A stretch of DNA of 64,000 nucleotides from Bacteroidales bacterium (GCA_003851245.1 BHEP01000005.1:1-64000); one strand, 5' to 3'; counted from the first letter of the stretch, positions 41,360 through 48,479 are shown. A program made the numbers and translations. Notes: generated from the letters alone by a model not told the origin.

Positions 41360-41443
41360 CAAAAAACTAAGAGTTTCATACATTATTATCACTATTTTGA
41401 AAACACTCAAGGGGTCTACAACAATTATTTAATAAATTATTGT

Positions 41444-41451
41444 AGCTTTGT
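41444..41451 (+). promoter_or_regulatory. -7 box for the acidic-protein/FHA operon
   Basis: TAGCTTTG fits TAnnTTTG and lies about 100 bases before the acidic-protein ATG. It sits at the right edge of an imperfect palindrome (41418-41447, CTACAA...TTGTAG), a possible operator. Confidence 0.5.
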
Positions 41452-41459
41452 AAAATAGT

Positions 41460-41545
41460 AAAGTTTCAGAGTAAAAGTTTCAGAGTAAAAGTTTCAGAAT
41501 AAAAGTTTAATAGTAAAAGTTTAATAGTAAAGTTTAAAAATAAAA
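41460..41545 (+). repeat. 14-bp tandem repeats in the leader of the signalling operon
   Basis: About six units close to TAAAAGTTTCAGAG (later ones TAAAAGTTTAATAG) run head to tail between the -7 box and the ATG at 41553, so they would be in the 5' untranslated leader. Confidence 0.8.
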
Positions 41546-41552
41546 ATAGATT

Positions 41553-41846
41553 ATGATAACTAGCGATGCCGATATTTTTGTTTTCGTAGACACGGAAGAT
41601 CAAGCCTTTGATTTTGTTACAATTGATGAGTCCGACAATTTTGCATCTCAAGCGGTGTTCATAGACATGACTGCCGACAATTATTTTGATGCCATAGATT
41701 TTGAATTAGAACAAGATTCCTTTGTTTATCTTGATGCAGATGTATCGACAGACAATTTCTCGCAAGATCAACTTGCCGAAGACATTTCCTTTATCGATGG
41801 CGACATTATCGATTTAGACCCCTCAAACGACATCTTCATATTATGA
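41553..41846 (+). CDS. Strongly acidic small protein without basic residues
   Basis: 97 residues with 22 Asp, 5 Glu and no Lys, Arg, His, Cys or Trp, so its net charge is about -27. Short hydrophobic/aromatic patches recur (F-V-F-V-D, F-D-F-V-T-I-D, V-F-I-D-M, F-V-Y-L-D, S-F-I-D-G), each ending in Asp, like repeated beta strands. No signal peptide. It ends by overlapping the FHA gene start by 4 bases (ATGA), which argues for a real, co-translated gene. Its Thr residues at 14, 23, 40 and 66 are each followed by acidic residues, possible kinase sites. I know no family for it; a substrate or scaffold for the following kinase/FHA set is inference. Confidence 0.72.
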   Translation: MITSDADIFVFVDTEDQAFDFVTIDESDNFASQAVFIDMTADNYFDAIDFELEQDSFVYLDADVSTDNFSQDQLAEDISFIDGDIIDLDPSNDIFIL

Positions 41847-42364
41847 TCTCCATCCGATGCCCCAATTGTGCAATAGGTCTAAAGGTCGACGAATCCAAAC
41901 TACCCTCTCATTTGGAATCCTTCAACTGCCCCAAGTGCAAGAAACCAATTCCTGTATCTTTATTGTCCTCCTCCGACAGTTCGGTACAAAATGACCCCGA
42001 CACAGTCCTCCTGTCTGCTGCAAGCATGCCCCAAAAAACAGGGCGCTTACTTGTGCTCGATGGCGCAACGAGCCAAGCCCAGACTATAAATCTGCGAGAA
42101 GGCATCAATATTATTGGGCGCCAAACGGCAACAAGCGACAACCCAACAGCAATAAACACCAGCGATAAATTAATGAGTAGAGAGCATCTTTTGATAGAAA
42201 TAAAGAAAGATGGAAAAGACAATTTTATTCATCAACTTTCGGACAATAAAAGCAAAAACAAGACGTTATACAAGGGTACATATCTTGACTCCGAAGAAGT
42301 AGTAGTTCTACAAGATGGAGATCAGATTCAGATAGGTCAGACTGCATTGAGATTTAATATATAA
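41843..42364 (+). CDS. Zinc-ribbon / FHA-domain protein
   Basis: 173 residues. The N-terminal zinc ribbon has C6-x2-C9 and C29-x2-C32. A linker with D-P-D-T-V-L-L (Thr54) follows. The C-terminal FHA domain (about 68-173) has the phosphothreonine-binding residues G92-R93 and S112-R-E-H115. FHA domains bind phosphothreonine peptides, often on or made by a cognate kinase. The same D-x-D-T-V-L motif occurs in the kinase three genes on, before its membrane helix (Thr334). It overlaps the acidic-protein gene by 4 bases and lies 31 bases before the PP2C gene. Confidence 0.9.
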   Translation: MISIRCPNCAIGLKVDESKLPSHLESFNCPKCKKPIPVSLLSSSDSSVQNDPDTVLLSAASMPQKTGRLLVLDGATSQAQTINLREGINIIGRQTATSDNPTAINTSDKLMSREHLLIEIKKDGKDNFIHQLSDNKSKNKTLYKGTYLDSEEVVVLQDGDQIQIGQTALRFNI

Positions 42365-42383
42365 ATTTATCGTGTTAACGTTT

Positions 42384-42391
42384 TAATTTTG
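42384..42391 (+). promoter_or_regulatory. -7-like box right before the PP2C start
   Basis: TAATTTTG ends 4 bases before the PP2C ATG. If used, transcription would start at or next to the start codon, giving a leaderless mRNA. No -33 box is clear. Confidence 0.35.
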
Positions 42392-42395
42392 TAGT

Positions 42396-43205
42396 ATGCC
42401 TATTAACCTAGATAAGTCGTACTCTATCAATGAGATAGGGGCACGAAGCAACAACGAAGATACAACTCAACCCAAACATGAATACATAACAGCAGAGAGT
42501 CGACTTTTTATGGTTTGCGATGGTGTTGGAGGTTCTAAAAAAGGGGAAATAGCCAGTGCCTTGGCCTGCGAATCTATACAAGACTACTTCGATAATTTTA
42601 TCCAGCCCGAACAGGTATTCTCAAAAGAATTTATAGACAAATCTGTTCGCTATGCCGAAATTAGATTTGACGACTACATAAAAGAAAACCCTTCGGCACA
42701 AGGAATGGCCACCACCCTCTGCCTTGTTTATTTTTCTTCCACGGGAGTATATCTTGCCCATGCAGGAGATAGCAGAATCTATCAGATACGAGATGGGGAA
42801 GTTCTGTATAAAACAGAAGATCACTCACTTGTAAATACCCTACTACTAAGCGGACAAATAACAAAGGAAGACGCTAAGAATCATCCTCAAAAAAATGTAA
42901 TACTAAGAGCAATTCAAGGAAGTCAATTCCCCGTAGAGATGGAAGTCAACAAGATTGAAGACGTATTATCTGGAGACCAGTTTTTTATCTGTACCGATGG
43001 CATACTCGAAGCCTTATCTGAGGAGGAAATATGCAGCATACTCAATCAAAAAAAAGGAGCTGAAACAAAACTCAAACAGATAAAAGAAATTTGCAGCGCT
43101 AAATCTAAGGATAATTTCTCGGCATATTTAATACCTGTGCAAAATGTTAGCCAATCAAAAACTGACAAGCATCTTTTTGCAACATTTCTTTCAGCATTCA
43201 TGTAA
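42396..43205 (+). CDS. PP2C-family Ser/Thr phosphatase
   Basis: 269 residues, cytoplasmic, with the full set of PP2C metal-binding motifs: R-S-N-N-E-D (17-22), V-C-D-G-V-G-G (Asp42), A-H-A-G-D-S-R-I, a late C-T-D-G and the final S-K-D-N. It should remove phosphate from Ser/Thr, opposing the kinase encoded next. Such phosphatase/kinase/FHA sets are found in Ter-type and type VI secretion regulation, but no secretion or vWA gene adjoins here. Confidence 0.94.
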   Translation: MPINLDKSYSINEIGARSNNEDTTQPKHEYITAESRLFMVCDGVGGSKKGEIASALACESIQDYFDNFIQPEQVFSKEFIDKSVRYAEIRFDDYIKENPSAQGMATTLCLVYFSSTGVYLAHAGDSRIYQIRDGEVLYKTEDHSLVNTLLLSGQITKEDAKNHPQKNVILRAIQGSQFPVEMEVNKIEDVLSGDQFFICTDGILEALSEEEICSILNQKKGAETKLKQIKEICSAKSKDNFSAYLIPVQNVSQSKTDKHLFATFLSAFM

Positions 43206-43211
43206 AATAAG

Positions 43212-43219
43212 TACCTTTG
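43212..43219 (+). promoter_or_regulatory. -7 box for the kinase gene
   Basis: TACCTTTG lies 27 bases before the ATG at 43247 and covers the upstream TTG (43217) of the same frame. It therefore supports the ATG as the start. Confidence 0.4.
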
Positions 43220-43246
43220 GTGCTAAAATATTCTTTAAGAATTCAA

Positions 43247-44926
43247 ATGCAGTTAAAACAAGGATATAAACTACACCAGGGAAAATACCAATTACTAAAC
43301 GTAATAGGTAATGGAGGATTCAGTCTGACCTATAAAGGCATATGGAATACTGAGATTAGAGGCAATCTAGGAAAGATCCCCGCAAAGGTTCCTGTATGTA
43401 TCAAGGAATATTTTTTAAAAGACTACTGTCGCCGAGACAGCAATTCTCCCAATGTAGTGGCAAGCTCTCCCAATGGAAAGGAGGTTTTCAAGAAAAATAA
43501 AGATGGATTGATCAAAGAAGCAAAAATTCTTTCCGAAGTGCATCACCCCAATATTGTAAGCGTATTGGAGGTGTTTAGACAAAACAATACGGTATACATC
43601 GTTATGGAATTTATTGCTGGGCAATCACTAAAACAAGAAGTGGTAGAAAAAGGCATGCTCAAGGAAGACTATCTCCTAAAAATTGTACAAAAAATAGGCT
43701 CTGCTCTTTCTTTCATTCACAAAAAAAATATACTACATCTCGACATCAAGCCAAGCAACATACTCATCAATCAGGGGCACAATCCTAAGCTAATAGATTT
43801 TGGAATTAGCAAGCGCTACGGGCTTACCGATCAACAAGAAACAAGCACCAGCATGCTAGCCGTATCTAAAGGATATGCCTCTATAGAGCAATACGATATT
43901 GAAGGCATGCAAGTATTTTCCCCCTGCCCCGATATTTACTCACTGGGAGCTAGCATGTACCATTTGCTTACAGGACAGGTGCCAACAGAATCTATTCTAA
44001 TATCTACCAAGGGACTTGCAAAACCAAGAACACTCAATCCTCTTATATCCGAAAAAACGGAAAATGTAATTCTAAAAGCCATGTCTATCAATTCAATCGA
44101 TAGATACCAGTGCGTAGAAGATATGCTACTAGAATTGGGTCTGAGCTTAGACCCTTGCGAAAACTCAAGTAAGGATGAAGAAGACAGCACCCACCTCATA
44201 ACTCCATCACTCAAAGAACCCATTTTTACAGACAATGACGATGATACAGTCTTGTTTGTTGCAAACAAAAATAGCAAGAAAAAAATTATCTATGCAGCTA
44301 TTATTATTACCATAATAATACCCTTAAGCATTTTTATTTTTAAAGGCAGTAAAATTATTGAAGAACAAGGACTTAATTCGACCTACACAAATGACAGCAC
44401 CACTCAAATACTTGCCAAGGATGATAAACAAACAAAAAAAGAGGAAGCTGAAAATAATGCTGCCGCAGAAAAAGCAATAGAAAGGATTGAACAAAAAAAA
44501 CTAGAAGAACAAGAACTTACAAACAAAAAATATGAAGATTTGCTTATAAATGCAAAAAGATATTTGGCAAACGAAGAGTACGAATTGACCAAATCGAAGT
44601 TTCAAGAAGCCAATAGCATAAGCAGTTCAAAAGAAATAGAAGAGTATATAAAATTGTGCAACAATGAATTATATAAAGAAGAGAAAGATAAAAGGTACGA
44701 AAGGTATGAATTAAAAATGAAATTTGGTAACTTTGTCGTTGCAAGAAACAAAACAACGGGCTTCTTTGGTGCTATTGATAGCGAGGGGCATGAAATAATT
44801 GCTTGCAAATATCTTAGCACTTCGAGAAATGGAGCCAACCGGTCTTTTTTAGACAAGAATGATCTTTACGATATTTATGGGCCCGACGGCTCATTAATAC
44901 AGGAGGGTGCTAGTTCATACAAATAG
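43247..44926 (+). CDS. Transmembrane Ser/Thr protein kinase with WG-repeat-like tail
   Basis: 559 residues from the ATG at 43247. Kinase domain about 14-305: glycine loop G21-N-G-G-F25, Lys53 (V-C-I-K-E-Y), H164-L-D-I-K-P-S-N and D184-F-G. The Arg before the catalytic Asp of classical RD kinases is Leu, so it is a non-RD kinase. A juxtamembrane D-D-D-T-V-L-F (Thr334) precedes a membrane helix (about 347-365). Outside the kinase lie a coiled coil (about 385-440), a helical segment and a C-terminal WG-repeat-like unit (T-G-F-F-G-A-I-D-S-E-G-H-E-I-I). This looks like an envelope sensor that signals inward, with the PP2C and FHA genes as partners. The next gene starts 5 bases on. Confidence 0.92.
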   Translation: MQLKQGYKLHQGKYQLLNVIGNGGFSLTYKGIWNTEIRGNLGKIPAKVPVCIKEYFLKDYCRRDSNSPNVVASSPNGKEVFKKNKDGLIKEAKILSEVHHPNIVSVLEVFRQNNTVYIVMEFIAGQSLKQEVVEKGMLKEDYLLKIVQKIGSALSFIHKKNILHLDIKPSNILINQGHNPKLIDFGISKRYGLTDQQETSTSMLAVSKGYASIEQYDIEGMQVFSPCPDIYSLGASMYHLLTGQVPTESILISTKGLAKPRTLNPLISEKTENVILKAMSINSIDRYQCVEDMLLELGLSLDPCENSSKDEEDSTHLITPSLKEPIFTDNDDDTVLFVANKNSKKKIIYAAIIITIIIPLSIFIFKGSKIIEEQGLNSTYTNDSTTQILAKDDKQTKKEEAENNAAAEKAIERIEQKKLEEQELTNKKYEDLLINAKRYLANEEYELTKSKFQEANSISSSKEIEEYIKLCNNELYKEEKDKRYERYELKMKFGNFVVARNKTTGFFGAIDSEGHEIIACKYLSTSRNGANRSFLDKNDLYDIYGPDGSLIQEGASSYK

Positions 44927-44931
44927 TTTTA

Positions 44932-45915
44932 ATGAAAAAATTTCTTATTTTAATTTTAATTTTAACGTCTTCTCAAAGTCTTTTTGCACAAATAAGTAAG
45001 GACTACAACCTCAAAGGAGATATGGCATTGCGCCAAGAAGACTACTACGATGCCCTCGCTTGGTATGGGGAGGGCTTGGATTCCTGTGATATATATAGCA
45101 TAAAGAAGCTAAATCTTATCTGGGATCTCAAGGAATCTATGCGATATGGCATGCGCATATCTATGGATAAATGTTTTCAATGTTTGACCCAAAAAGCCGA
45201 AAAAAATGATGCTGAAGCCATGAAGCTCTTGTCTAATTATTTTCTTAGGGGTATGGGCACAAAAATAGACCTAAGTCTTTCAGAACAATGGATGGAGAAA
45301 GCCACAAATATTCTATCGCCTCAAAAAACTACAGAAAACAATACGTCTTCAATCTCAGTTATTCCCTCTACTACAATAAATTACAGTCTTGAAAGCCCCT
45401 CAAAAACAAGCAAGCCAATATTTGCAGCATATACTGCCTCGCCCACCATGCCCTTTGGATTTATGCTGGGAGGCTACCATAAAAACAAGAAATTGGGTGC
45501 TTACGCAAAAGTGCTAAGCAATTTGAGATCCAAAACCTCCGAGCTAACTTGCAACAACAGAGATATAGAGGGGCTCATAGACGAAAGCTTGTTTAGCCAC
45601 TTCACAAAAAAAACTAGAAGAAACAATCTGGCAATAAGTGCAGGCCTACTATACCCTCTAAATGACAGGCTCTCACTATCGGGCGGCCTAGGCTATGGAA
45701 AAAGAGAAGTCTATTGGGAGGTAGCCCATTACCATATGGACACAGAAAAGCTCTACAAAAAACTATGGGCACACAATATAGAAAGTTCGTATAGAGGAGT
45801 GGTAGCCGAAATTGGTGCCGTATATAAGTTCGATAAATTTATATTTTTAGCAGGTCTATCCACACTAAAATTAAAAGACTTGGATATGTATGCTGGCATA
45901 GGATATTCATTTTAA
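44932..45915 (+). CDS. Exported TPR/Sel1-like protein with barrel-like C-terminus
   Basis: 327 residues. Signal peptide about 1-20 (M-K-K-F-L-I-L-I-L-I-L-T). Residues 25-125 form TPR/Sel1-like helices (A-L-R-Q-E-D-Y-Y-D-A-L-A-W-Y-G-E-G; A-E-A-M-K-L-L-S-N-Y). The second half (about 165-327) has alternating strands with G-x-L-Y-P-L-N-D-R-L-S-L-S-G-G-L-G-Y-G and ends Y-A-G-I-G-Y-S-F with a terminal Phe, as in small outer-membrane barrels. It follows the kinase by 5 bases, so it is likely the kinase's envelope partner. No known family was recognised. Confidence 0.7.
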   Translation: MKKFLILILILTSSQSLFAQISKDYNLKGDMALRQEDYYDALAWYGEGLDSCDIYSIKKLNLIWDLKESMRYGMRISMDKCFQCLTQKAEKNDAEAMKLLSNYFLRGMGTKIDLSLSEQWMEKATNILSPQKTTENNTSSISVIPSTTINYSLESPSKTSKPIFAAYTASPTMPFGFMLGGYHKNKKLGAYAKVLSNLRSKTSELTCNNRDIEGLIDESLFSHFTKKTRRNNLAISAGLLYPLNDRLSLSGGLGYGKREVYWEVAHYHMDTEKLYKKLWAHNIESSYRGVVAEIGAVYKFDKFIFLAGLSTLKLKDLDMYAGIGYSF

Positions 45916-45927
45916 TTGACAACAATC

Positions 45928-47529
45928 ATGAAACAAATAATTTTTTTACTGTCCATTATTACCTTCCTCCTTCTGTGCAGCTCATGCCTAGAAACGGTGG
46001 AAGTGCCAGATACAGTATTTAATGGAAGAGTGCCAGAGATAATCACAAAAACACCAGAAGAGATACACTACTTTGATGCCATCATTTCTGCCGAGGTAGT
46101 TTCGGGCAAGGGATACGAGGTCAGAGAAAGAGGGTTTTTTATGTCTTTAGATAGTTTGCAAGATTTTGAAACCCCCGACAACAAAATTATATGTGGCAGT
46201 GGAAAGGGTGTATATTCAAAGAAAATAGAAAATCTAAAGGCGGATAAGCAATATTTCTATAAGGCATACGCCATAAATGAGGCTGGGATTAATTGTGGAA
46301 ACACCAAATTTTTTAATACTCTTAGCACCATTCCCACCCTATCTACAGGCTTGGCAAATAATATAGTAGATGGGCAGGCCTCTTGCTATGGGCACATCAT
46401 TCTGCAGGGAGATAATGAGATTGAGACTTTGGGAATTGTTTGGGGAAAGTCGCCAAACATAGATGAAATGGAAAATGTTGCCATATACGTCGACCCCAAG
46501 GCTAAGGACTTTAAAATTACATTGGAAAACCTAAGTGGCGACGTCCAATATTTTTTCTCTGCCTTTGCCAAAAATAATATAGGCACTGGATATGGGGAGG
46601 TGCAAAATTTCTTTGCAGGCAGTATTTGGACAGAAGAAAGTTCCTTTATCAGTCAGGCCAGAGAAGATGCAGCCACCTTTGTATTAAAGAAAGACCTTTA
46701 CATATCGTGTGGGGTGCTACAAAATTCCATGCCACTAAAGAGCACTTTTCAATATTCTATACAGAACAAAAGATGGCACTCAATAGCCGAAATAGATACC
46801 AACCTCACTAGGAAAGGCCCATTCTCCTTCGTATTGGGTGATTATGCTTTTTTAGGTCATGGCAAATCCTTAGGAGGACACAGGCCCGACGATTTTTACC
46901 GATACGACAGATTCGACAACACCTGGCAGGAAATGTTTTTCCCAAAAATACTCAACGGGCAGGCAATGGAAGGAAGGTATATGGCAACAGGTTTTTCCTT
47001 GGGCAACAATGCCTACGTAGTGGGCGGTGAAGTGTCGGCAAGATATCTCAACGAGGTGCTGAGGCTGAATGTAAATGAGACCTCAGGAGTTTACTCCTGG
47101 TACAAGATGTCTGATTTTCCAAGCAGAATATATGAGGCTGTGAGCTTTGTTTGCAATGGAGAGGCATATGCGGGACTGGGAAGGGAAAAAGTGGCCGATA
47201 GCAGCATAGAACTACCCATAGTCAACAAAACCATTTGGAAATATAATGAGGCTGGCGACAGCTGGGAGGAATTTATCACCTATGCTCCTAAAGTATTCAC
47301 AAACATGGTGGTTGTCAAAAATAAGGCCTATGGCATAGCCTACAACGACAATCAGATTTGGGAACTCGATATAGACACAAAAAAATGGAAGGCTAAGTCT
47401 AAAATACCTCTTAAAAATACAGCTTCTATAGGCAAGCAATTTATGCTTGCTGTCGATAATATTGTATATATAGGAATTGATAGGTTTGCCACCGATGTTT
47501 ATGCCTACCACCCTCTTTGGGATAATTGA
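45928..47529 (+). CDS. Kelch-like surface lipoprotein
   Basis: About 533 residues from the ATG at 45928; a TTG 12 bases earlier is a poorer start. The signal ends in L-L-L-C-S-S-C with Cys20 the likely lipidated residue, though the -3 position is an unusual Cys. Two beta-sandwich modules (about 30-225) read V-R-E-R-G-F-F-M-S and I-E-T-L-G-I-V-W-G, the repeated form common in Bacteroidota lipoproteins. Kelch-type blades follow (about 230-533; W-H-S-I-A-E, F-Y-R-Y-D-R-F-D-N-T-W, A-Y-V-V-G-G-E, I-W-K-Y-N-E-A-G-D-S-W). It probably binds a ligand at the cell surface. Last gene of the run before cysE. Confidence 0.75.
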   Translation: MKQIIFLLSIITFLLLCSSCLETVEVPDTVFNGRVPEIITKTPEEIHYFDAIISAEVVSGKGYEVRERGFFMSLDSLQDFETPDNKIICGSGKGVYSKKIENLKADKQYFYKAYAINEAGINCGNTKFFNTLSTIPTLSTGLANNIVDGQASCYGHIILQGDNEIETLGIVWGKSPNIDEMENVAIYVDPKAKDFKITLENLSGDVQYFFSAFAKNNIGTGYGEVQNFFAGSIWTEESSFISQAREDAATFVLKKDLYISCGVLQNSMPLKSTFQYSIQNKRWHSIAEIDTNLTRKGPFSFVLGDYAFLGHGKSLGGHRPDDFYRYDRFDNTWQEMFFPKILNGQAMEGRYMATGFSLGNNAYVVGGEVSARYLNEVLRLNVNETSGVYSWYKMSDFPSRIYEAVSFVCNGEAYAGLGREKVADSSIELPIVNKTIWKYNEAGDSWEEFITYAPKVFTNMVVVKNKAYGIAYNDNQIWELDIDTKKWKAKSKIPLKNTASIGKQFMLAVDNIVYIGIDRFATDVYAYHPLWDN

Positions 47530-47564: not shown

Positions 47565-48479
47565 ATGGAAAATAAAAATATTCACGACTGCATAAAAGCT
47601 AATATAGCAGCGCTCACCAAGGAGCATTCTGAGAGATTTCCTCAAATTCCTCTTTACGACAAAACGATGCCCTCTACAGATCATCTAAGACGAGTGATTG
47701 ATGAAATTAAGAACATAGTTTTTCCAAGCTATTTTGGACCATCCGTCAACGTCCACAGTCTGAAATACCATACAGAAGTAAGCTTAGAAAGGCTATACAA
47801 ACTTCTGCAAGAGCAAATATACAGGGCACTTAGTTTCGATTTTATTGAAGAAGAGACTCACTCCTGCGATACTCAAAAACGAGCATCTATCCTCTGCATA
47901 CACTTTATAGACAAGCTGTCGCAGATAAAATATATGCTCTCTACCGACGTAAAAGCCATTTTTGAGGGAGACCCAGCAGCAAAAAATTATGCGGAAATTA
48001 TTTTTTGCTATCCTGCCATCAAGGCTATATTAAATTATAGGGTGGCCTCAGAATTATTTTTGCTCAAGATACCGCTTATACCAAGAATAATTTCTGAAAT
48101 GGCACATGCCGACACGGGTATAGATATTCATCCAGGGGCAAAAATAGGCAGCCACTTTAGCATTGATCATGGCACAGGTGTAGTAGTAGGGCAAACGGCA
48201 ATTATAGGCAAGCATGTACGACTTTACCAAGGAGTGACCCTGGGAGCCAAGAGCTTCTCTTTCGATACCGACGGCAAGGCCATAGACAAACCGCGCCATC
48301 CAATATTGGAAGATCATGTAACCATTTACTCCAATGCCTCCATATTGGGGCGTATCACCATTGGTGCAGGAAGTATTGTAGGTGGAAACTTATGGCTAAC
48401 AAACTCAGTACCTGCCAATTCAAGGGTATTACAAACCAAAGCCATAGAGAGTGCTTTCTCTGATGGCTCTGGAATATAG
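47565..48479 (+). CDS. cysE: Serine O-acetyltransferase (EpsC-type)
   Basis: About 304 residues from the ATG at 47565; the open frame reaches back to a TTG at 47526 that overlaps the lipoprotein gene. The N-terminal helical domain is long, as in EpsC-type enzymes. The C-terminal left-handed beta helix has D-I-H-P-G-A-K-I-G, the catalytic I-D-H-G-T-G-V-V-V-G-Q-T and V-T-L-G-A-K. It makes O-acetylserine for CysK (0.6 kb). It lies 35 bases past the kelch gene and may be read with it, but has no clear functional link. Confidence 0.93.
   Translation: MENKNIHDCIKANIAALTKEHSERFPQIPLYDKTMPSTDHLRRVIDEIKNIVFPSYFGPSVNVHSLKYHTEVSLERLYKLLQEQIYRALSFDFIEEETHSCDTQKRASILCIHFIDKLSQIKYMLSTDVKAIFEGDPAAKNYAEIIFCYPAIKAILNYRVASELFLLKIPLIPRIISEMAHADTGIDIHPGAKIGSHFSIDHGTGVVVGQTAIIGKHVRLYQGVTLGAKSFSFDTDGKAIDKPRHPILEDHVTIYSNASILGRITIGAGSIVGGNLWLTNSVPANSRVLQTKAIESAFSDGSGI

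Follow-up and report, generated by a model that had tools for sequence, protein, structure and literature searches.

A locus at positions 41553–47529 of a 64,000-nucleotide stretch of DNA from Bacteroidales bacterium (GCA_003851245.1 BHEP01000005.1:1-64000; the whole stretch is referred to as the window) encodes a small acidic protein, a zinc-ribbon/FHA (Zn/FHA) protein, a PP2C phosphatase, a Hanks-type membrane kinase, an exported TPR/barrel protein and a kelch lipoprotein. We tentatively propose that these proteins, together with a LytTR protein and a second FHA protein (FHA2) encoded elsewhere in the same genome, form a conserved trans-envelope threonine-phosphorylation circuit with LytTR output. 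The six open reading frames all lie on the + strand with intergenic gaps of -4, 31, 41, 5, and 12 bases, as the original prediction had described. Its proposal of a six-gene system stands with respect to conservation of the set, but the membership is larger, since LytTR and FHA2 belong to it and a CysE-like gene is often attached. Everything found is compatible with its core idea of a kinase-based envelope signaling set that has components outside and inside, with signaling itself being a proposal from sequence.

Conservation of the Gene Set in Two Families

Orthologues were sought in 48 genomes from the window's family, 124 from Tannerellaceae, and 393 from the order. A Zn/FHA orthologue was detected at an E value of 1e-68 or better in at least 102 of the 124 Tannerellaceae genomes; related loci of this family come from Tannerella, Massilibacteroides, and Parabacteroides, among others. 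Nineteen of 20 Tannerellaceae loci that were fetched carry this orthologue, and 16 of the 19 have all eight genes in the order LytTR, FHA2, acidic protein, Zn/FHA, PP2C, kinase, TPR/barrel, and kelch lipoprotein; the other three break after PP2C. The same order without FHA2 is observed in the window's family, where the loci include Dysgonamonadaceae, Candidatus Azobacteroides, and Candidatus Symbiothrix metagenome-assembled genomes, and where the distribution is patchy, with a Zn/FHA orthologue in 13 of the 48 genomes (12 besides the window's own). Within this family, kinase orthologues are present in 12, and kelch orthologues in 11, of the 13 FHA-positive genomes, and both are absent from all 35 FHA-negative genomes (Fisher p = 2e-10 and 3e-9, respectively, with relatedness ignored). 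Full-length barrel orthologues are confined to the window's family and Tannerellaceae among the 393 genomes of the order. Judged from these sequences, the set is shared between termite-gut and human-associated Bacteroidales.

The arrangement is not a chance one, because the same order of genes is found in two families whose proteins are roughly 30–60% identical. Conservation is not limited to the kinase/phosphatase pair, the outcome that the original prediction had named as fatal to it; all six genes recur together in both families. Recent transfer between the families was considered and rejected: the gene trees split the two families for every component tested, which fits vertical descent under simple rooting.

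Seven loci (L041, L044–L046, L167, L175, and L180) break after PP2C or part PP2C from the kinase, and a conserved promoter box lies at that point (see below). These breaks would suit two independent modules, one comprising LytTR, FHA2, the acidic protein, Zn/FHA, and PP2C and the other the kinase, barrel, and kelch proteins, that are neighbors by descent only. However, the kinase and kelch genes accompany the FHA gene also where they are not adjacent to it, and both are missing from 35 genomes of the window's family. Moreover, a PP2C and FHA pair needs a threonine kinase, and the sole Pkinase match in the genome is the kinase of this locus, making full independence of the two modules very improbable. 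The window's own genome (2.94 Mb, 99.7% complete), which was searched by profile, has in the Pfam tally one Pkinase, one PP2C_2, and two FHA matches.

Kinase, Phosphatase, and Zn/FHA Protein

The kinase gene (43247..44926, +, ATG start) encodes a catalytic domain that matches Pfam Pkinase with 132.5 bits (cut-off 31.7), in which K53, the non-RD HLD166 motif, N171, and D184FG are invariant, identifying it as a Hanks-type Ser/Thr kinase. The domain is followed by juxtamembrane acidic-threonine motifs, one membrane helix, and a periplasmic tail. The protein scores 163.7 bits against a cut-off of 450 for the PASTA kinase family NF033483, and there are no PASTA domains in its Pfam list. The tail is conserved, and the tails of relatives give weak TPR and WG matches; WG_beta_rep is matched in two of eight kinases, the window's kinase not being one of them. 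The domains originally assigned are thus borne out by Pfam for FHA, PP2C, kinase, and kelch, and by structure prediction for the barrel, while the WG-like kinase tail finds little support.

The PP2C phosphatase (42396..43205, +; Pfam PP2C_2) has conserved metal-site residues. In the Zn/FHA protein (41843..42364, +), the FHA domain scores 41.6 bits against the Pfam cut-off of 20.7, with R93, S112, R113, H115, and N139 invariant, consistent with a phosphate-binding FHA fold. The linker residue Thr54, within the sequence DPDTVLL, is invariant in 20 sequences. NCBIfam matches to OdhI (16.9 bits, cut-off 200) and FhaB (23.1 bits, cut-off 125) cover the linker and FHA domain and lie below threshold, and a search for close relatives of solved structure gave generic FHA matches only.

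Acidic-Threonine Motifs and the Small Acidic Protein

The acidic gene (41553..41846, +) encodes 97 residues, of which 27 are Asp or Glu and none Lys or Arg, and contains a DFVTIDE motif. No Pfam or NCBIfam family is matched by the protein. Its family members range from 71 to 103 residues, with about 30% Asp/Glu and almost no Lys/Arg, and the gene is under purifying selection in relatives (ratio of nonsynonymous to synonymous substitution rates 0.04–0.39). An [FL][VI]T core is present in 41 of 42 acidic proteins, and by sequence these constitute a new family built on FVTIDE-type motifs.

Comparison with composition shuffles shows an excess of acidic-threonine motifs in three places, namely the kinase linkers (60 versus 13.7), the FHA linkers (41 versus 6.5), and the acidic proteins (35 versus 0.8), these being counts over related sequences. 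The acidic protein had been assigned to act inside the cell; we regard it less as a general partner in the cytoplasm than as a candidate phosphothreonine acceptor with multiple sites. A folded acidic protein was considered and set aside: the AlphaFold2 model is uninformative (predicted local distance difference test score, pLDDT, 44), which is compatible with disorder and is no proof of it.

The LytTR-FHA2 Pair

The second FHA locus of the genome lies on contig C14 (L001:1085-2139), where a soluble LytTR gene (Pfam LytTR, 36.2 bits, cut-off 22.6) is directly followed by FHA2. FHA2 comprises an FHA domain, a clear predicted membrane helix, a possible second helix, and a Cys-rich end; its profile matches are to FHA-type families only, and its phosphate-binding residues are conserved, as in the Zn/FHA protein. 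A soluble LytTR gene followed by a gene for a protein with a predicted membrane helix is the layout of the LytTR Regulatory Systems (LRS). In these systems, promoters are preceded by 9-bp repeats with a 12-bp spacing, and the gene after LytTR encodes a membrane inhibitor (PMC6193735).

In Tannerellaceae the LytTR-FHA2 pair is located directly 5' of the acidic gene, and in other members of the window's family LytTR alone, without FHA2, occupies this position. A YebC-like gene is found just before LytTR at L001 and near LytTR in relatives, and nadC and C1 peptidase genes follow the set both in the window and in relatives. Because relatives keep LytTR, with or without FHA2, before the acidic gene, with the nadC/C1 peptidase and YebC-like flanks in common, a break between FHA2 and the acidic gene has probably divided an ancestral locus in the window's genome.

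The gene downstream of the kelch gene (47565..48479, +; 35 bases 3') encodes a CysE/EpsC-like serine acetyltransferase (NCBIfam EpsC, 153.1 bits, cut-off 150) and is often the terminal member of the set in related loci; its membership is uncertain. Its frequent attachment, the absence of FHA2 but not of the other genes from most members of the window's family, and the resemblance of the linker-threonine and FHA layout to OdhI/FhaB seen in the weak NCBIfam matches would each be accommodated by a phospho-switch without a transcriptional arm. The Zn/FHA protein would then act like GarA/OdhI or FhaA in steering a metabolic or envelope enzyme, and LytTR-FHA2 would control expression of the set only. 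The scores below the OdhI and FhaB cut-offs argue against this arrangement, as does FHA2, whose phosphate-binding residues are kept and whose position is fixed beside LytTR in Tannerellaceae, suggesting that it reads phosphorylation. On balance we consider a switch of this kind rather unlikely.

Two further loci show variations on the LytTR-FHA2 pair. At L169:1980-4756 the pair is tandemly duplicated before the acidic gene, and the first FHA2 copy is longer and divergent. In another family, the LytTR-FHA2 genes at L137:8915-12550 stand immediately before a kinase gene whose product has PEGA repeats and an FGE-sulfatase domain; this is a second case in which LytTR-FHA2 accompanies a Hanks kinase.

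Promoter-Like Boxes and a Candidate LytTR Site

Searches for the Bacteroidota -7 box (TAnnTTTG) identified one before the acidic gene (41443..41450, +; TAGCTTTG) and one before the kinase gene (43212..43219, +; TACCTTTG), the latter 6 bp after the PP2C stop codon. The first is found in 19 of 19 aligned Tannerellaceae FHA2-acidic gaps. The second occurs in the PP2C-kinase interval of 25 of 26 loci from the two families, in most cases 6 bp past the PP2C stop (about 7% of random 105-bp stretches hold such a box). Because conserved boxes precede the acidic and kinase genes and the evolutionary breakpoints coincide with them, the set is probably expressed as two or three transcription units and not as one transcript, and a single operon is correspondingly weakened as a description of the locus.

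The Tannerellaceae loci contain a bipartite element of two TTTG-type 9-mers 12 bp apart (TTTGTACA and TTTG(A/T), 21 bp apart), with the form TTTGTACA-N13-TTTGATTA. In 31 of 32 Tannerellaceae loci the distance from this element to the acidic-gene box downstream of it is 68–69 bp; in L079 it is 79 bp. In the window's family, L035 has the element 68 bp before a box. The window itself contains a degenerate bipartite direct repeat (41374..41404, +; TTTCATACA...TTTTGAAAA), which is a candidate LytTR site; its first half-site begins at position 41375, at a distance of 68 bp upstream of the -7 box. With a matrix built from 28 Tannerellaceae sites, this repeat ranks 10th of 127,932 positions scanned in the window; its score is 1.2, compared with 22.7–47.7 for the Tannerellaceae sites, and its spacing is identical. 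As the exact 68-bp position ranks high but scores low, the repeat is a diverged or decayed copy, and by analogy with LRS it would be the place where LytTR binds.

A tandem array of about six copies of a 14-bp unit (AAAAGTTTCAGAGT) lies between the -7 box and the acidic gene (41460..41545, +). By pattern search the array occurs at a single place in the genome, and it was not seen upstream of the relatives' genes. It was rejected as a LytTR array, its period being unlike 21–22 bp and the relatives lacking it.

The Barrel Protein and Kelch Lipoprotein

The exported TPR/barrel protein (44932..45915, +) comprises a TPR/Sel1 domain and an eight-stranded OmpX-like outer-membrane barrel. Its AlphaFold2 model (mean pLDDT 85.6) superimposes on OmpX (1qj9) with Z 16.8 over 134 residues (root-mean-square deviation 3.4), supporting the eight-stranded fold; the OMP_b-brl profile is matched below its cut-off (21.4 versus 28.7 bits). 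The TPR/Sel1 domain should be located in the periplasm. The kelch lipoprotein (45928..47529, +) has an Ig/fn3-like part and a kelch propeller (Pfam kelch), and its lipobox Cys20 is invariant in eight homologues; it does not reach the NCBIfam cut-off of the NanM/YjhT kelch mutarotases (47.5 versus 416 bits).

Distant barrel-kelch pairs without a kinase occur in other Bacteroidales (L144:4464-10501, L145:5293-11042, and L146:3-3852), each with an exported protein of about 590–610 residues beside the barrel, which in L145 has a caspase (Peptidase_C14) domain. Because such pairs exist without a kinase, the barrel-kelch pair resembles an envelope module of older origin that became linked to the kinase here. 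The kinase-free pairs, one of them next to a caspase-domain protein, also lend some weight to the barrel and kelch proteins being outputs and not sensors, either regulated by the kinase or surface proteins merely sharing its promoter. In the window's family, however, genomes retain or lack the kinase and kelch orthologues jointly, also where these lie apart from FHA-PP2C, and a periplasmic TPR/Sel1 domain would suit contact with an inner-membrane partner; an output role thus seems unlikely.

Proposed Circuit and Its Weighing

In the proposed circuit, the kelch lipoprotein and OmpX-like barrel would report envelope or surface state to the periplasmic tail of the kinase, which would phosphorylate the acidic-threonine motifs of its juxtamembrane segment, of the Zn/FHA linker, and of the small acidic protein. 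The resulting phosphothreonines would be rival ligands of the soluble Zn/FHA protein and of membrane-anchored FHA2, and PP2C would reset the system. Since FHA2 follows LytTR in a two-gene operon, its most likely role is to retain LytTR or let it go depending on phosphorylation. LytTR may then act on the direct repeat that precedes the promoter of the acidic-FHA-PP2C genes, which would complete a feedback loop. The more specific proposal of a LytTR system gated by phosphothreonine, in which the barrel and kelch proteins signal to the Hanks-type kinase, LytTR is freed from the FHA membrane protein, and the acidic FVTIDE-type protein is a competing ligand, is possible but doubtful.

Several observations weigh against the circuit. 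The kinase module lies apart from the remaining genes at some loci. FHA2 has been lost from most other members of the window's family, and a matrix search of those members did not find the bipartite element except in L035, so the LytTR/FHA2 arm is not universal. The repeat in the window is degenerate; moreover, it precedes the acidic gene, and no such repeat was detected with the matrix in front of LytTR itself, other repeat types not being excluded by this search. The acidic-threonine motif counts are not independent because the sequences are related, the window's acidic protein retains a single clear FVT motif, and the second motif of the acidic proteins is not always a Thr or Ser.

Relation to Known Systems

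By analogy, the set would work like an FHA phospho-switch combined with a LytTR regulatory system. As in the HdrRM/BrsRM-type LRS (PMC6193735), a soluble LytTR and a membrane protein form a two-gene unit, and 9-bp repeats 12 bp apart lie upstream of a promoter. In contrast to LRS, the membrane protein is an FHA protein, outside the membrane families named in PMC6193735, and a Hanks kinase and PP2C are linked. In LRS, 9-bp direct repeats 11–13 bp apart are expected before the promoter of the LytTR operon; the conserved 9-12-9 repeat here is at the next promoter instead. Threonines in the kinase juxtamembrane segment and FHA linker, an FHA reader, and a PP2C eraser are shared with PknB-FhaA and GarA/OdhI; in PknB-FhaA, according to work cited in PMC12077195, the FHA protein docks onto the phosphorylated juxtamembrane segment. 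Unlike these systems, the set lacks PASTA domains, falls below the family cut-offs, and includes a Zn-ribbon FHA protein, a dedicated acidic protein, an outer-membrane barrel, and a lipoprotein.

The type VI secretion threonine phosphorylation pathway (PpkA-PppA-Fha1) likewise contains a kinase, PP2C, and FHA protein, but its accessory genes differ from those here. Searches of the genome gave no matches to the type VI sheath gene VipB or to TerD (a genome-wide vWA search was not made), and type VI and Ter contexts were set aside on this ground.

Other Bacteroidales FHA/PP2C/kinase sets also contain FHA2-like, Zn/FHA, PP2C, and kinase genes and usually encode a protein with an acidic tail next to the Zn/FHA gene, but their kinases are distant and a full-length barrel orthologue is absent. 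The protein that occupies the place of the acidic protein in these sets (L047:7095-8210, L149:107-1414, L141:244-1722, L135:2252-3301, L136:148-1152, L139:9772-10965, and L148:9102-10226) has 330–490 residues and combines a membrane segment with a conserved FAAAR..GxGG..Y domain and a long acidic tail; DDKTLI/DEETIF motifs are often found near its N terminus, and the best match in Pfam is a marginal one. At L163:5655-13220, genome G464 carries a second FHA/kinase/PP2C set of a different kind, the first gene of which is a close relative of the Zn/FHA gene.

In TonB receptor/anti-sigma signaling, an outer-membrane barrel signals to an inner-membrane regulator. The same direction is proposed here, with a small OmpX-like barrel and a Ser/Thr kinase replacing the TonB receptor and anti-sigma factor. 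A mainly open-access literature search found no paper describing the set in Bacteroidota, or describing it as a signaling circuit.

If the proposal is correct, the set would constitute an outer-membrane-linked kinase pathway with a new mode of LytTR gating and a new family of phosphoacceptor proteins, and would provide an outer-membrane-to-DNA route run by Ser/Thr phosphorylation, parallel to TonB receptor/anti-sigma signaling. As the set is nearly universal in Tannerellaceae (Parabacteroides, Massilibacteroides), it is testable in cultured strains. In the window's organism, threonine phosphorylation could be traceable to one kinase, because the sole Pkinase and PP2C_2 matches in the genome are members of the set.

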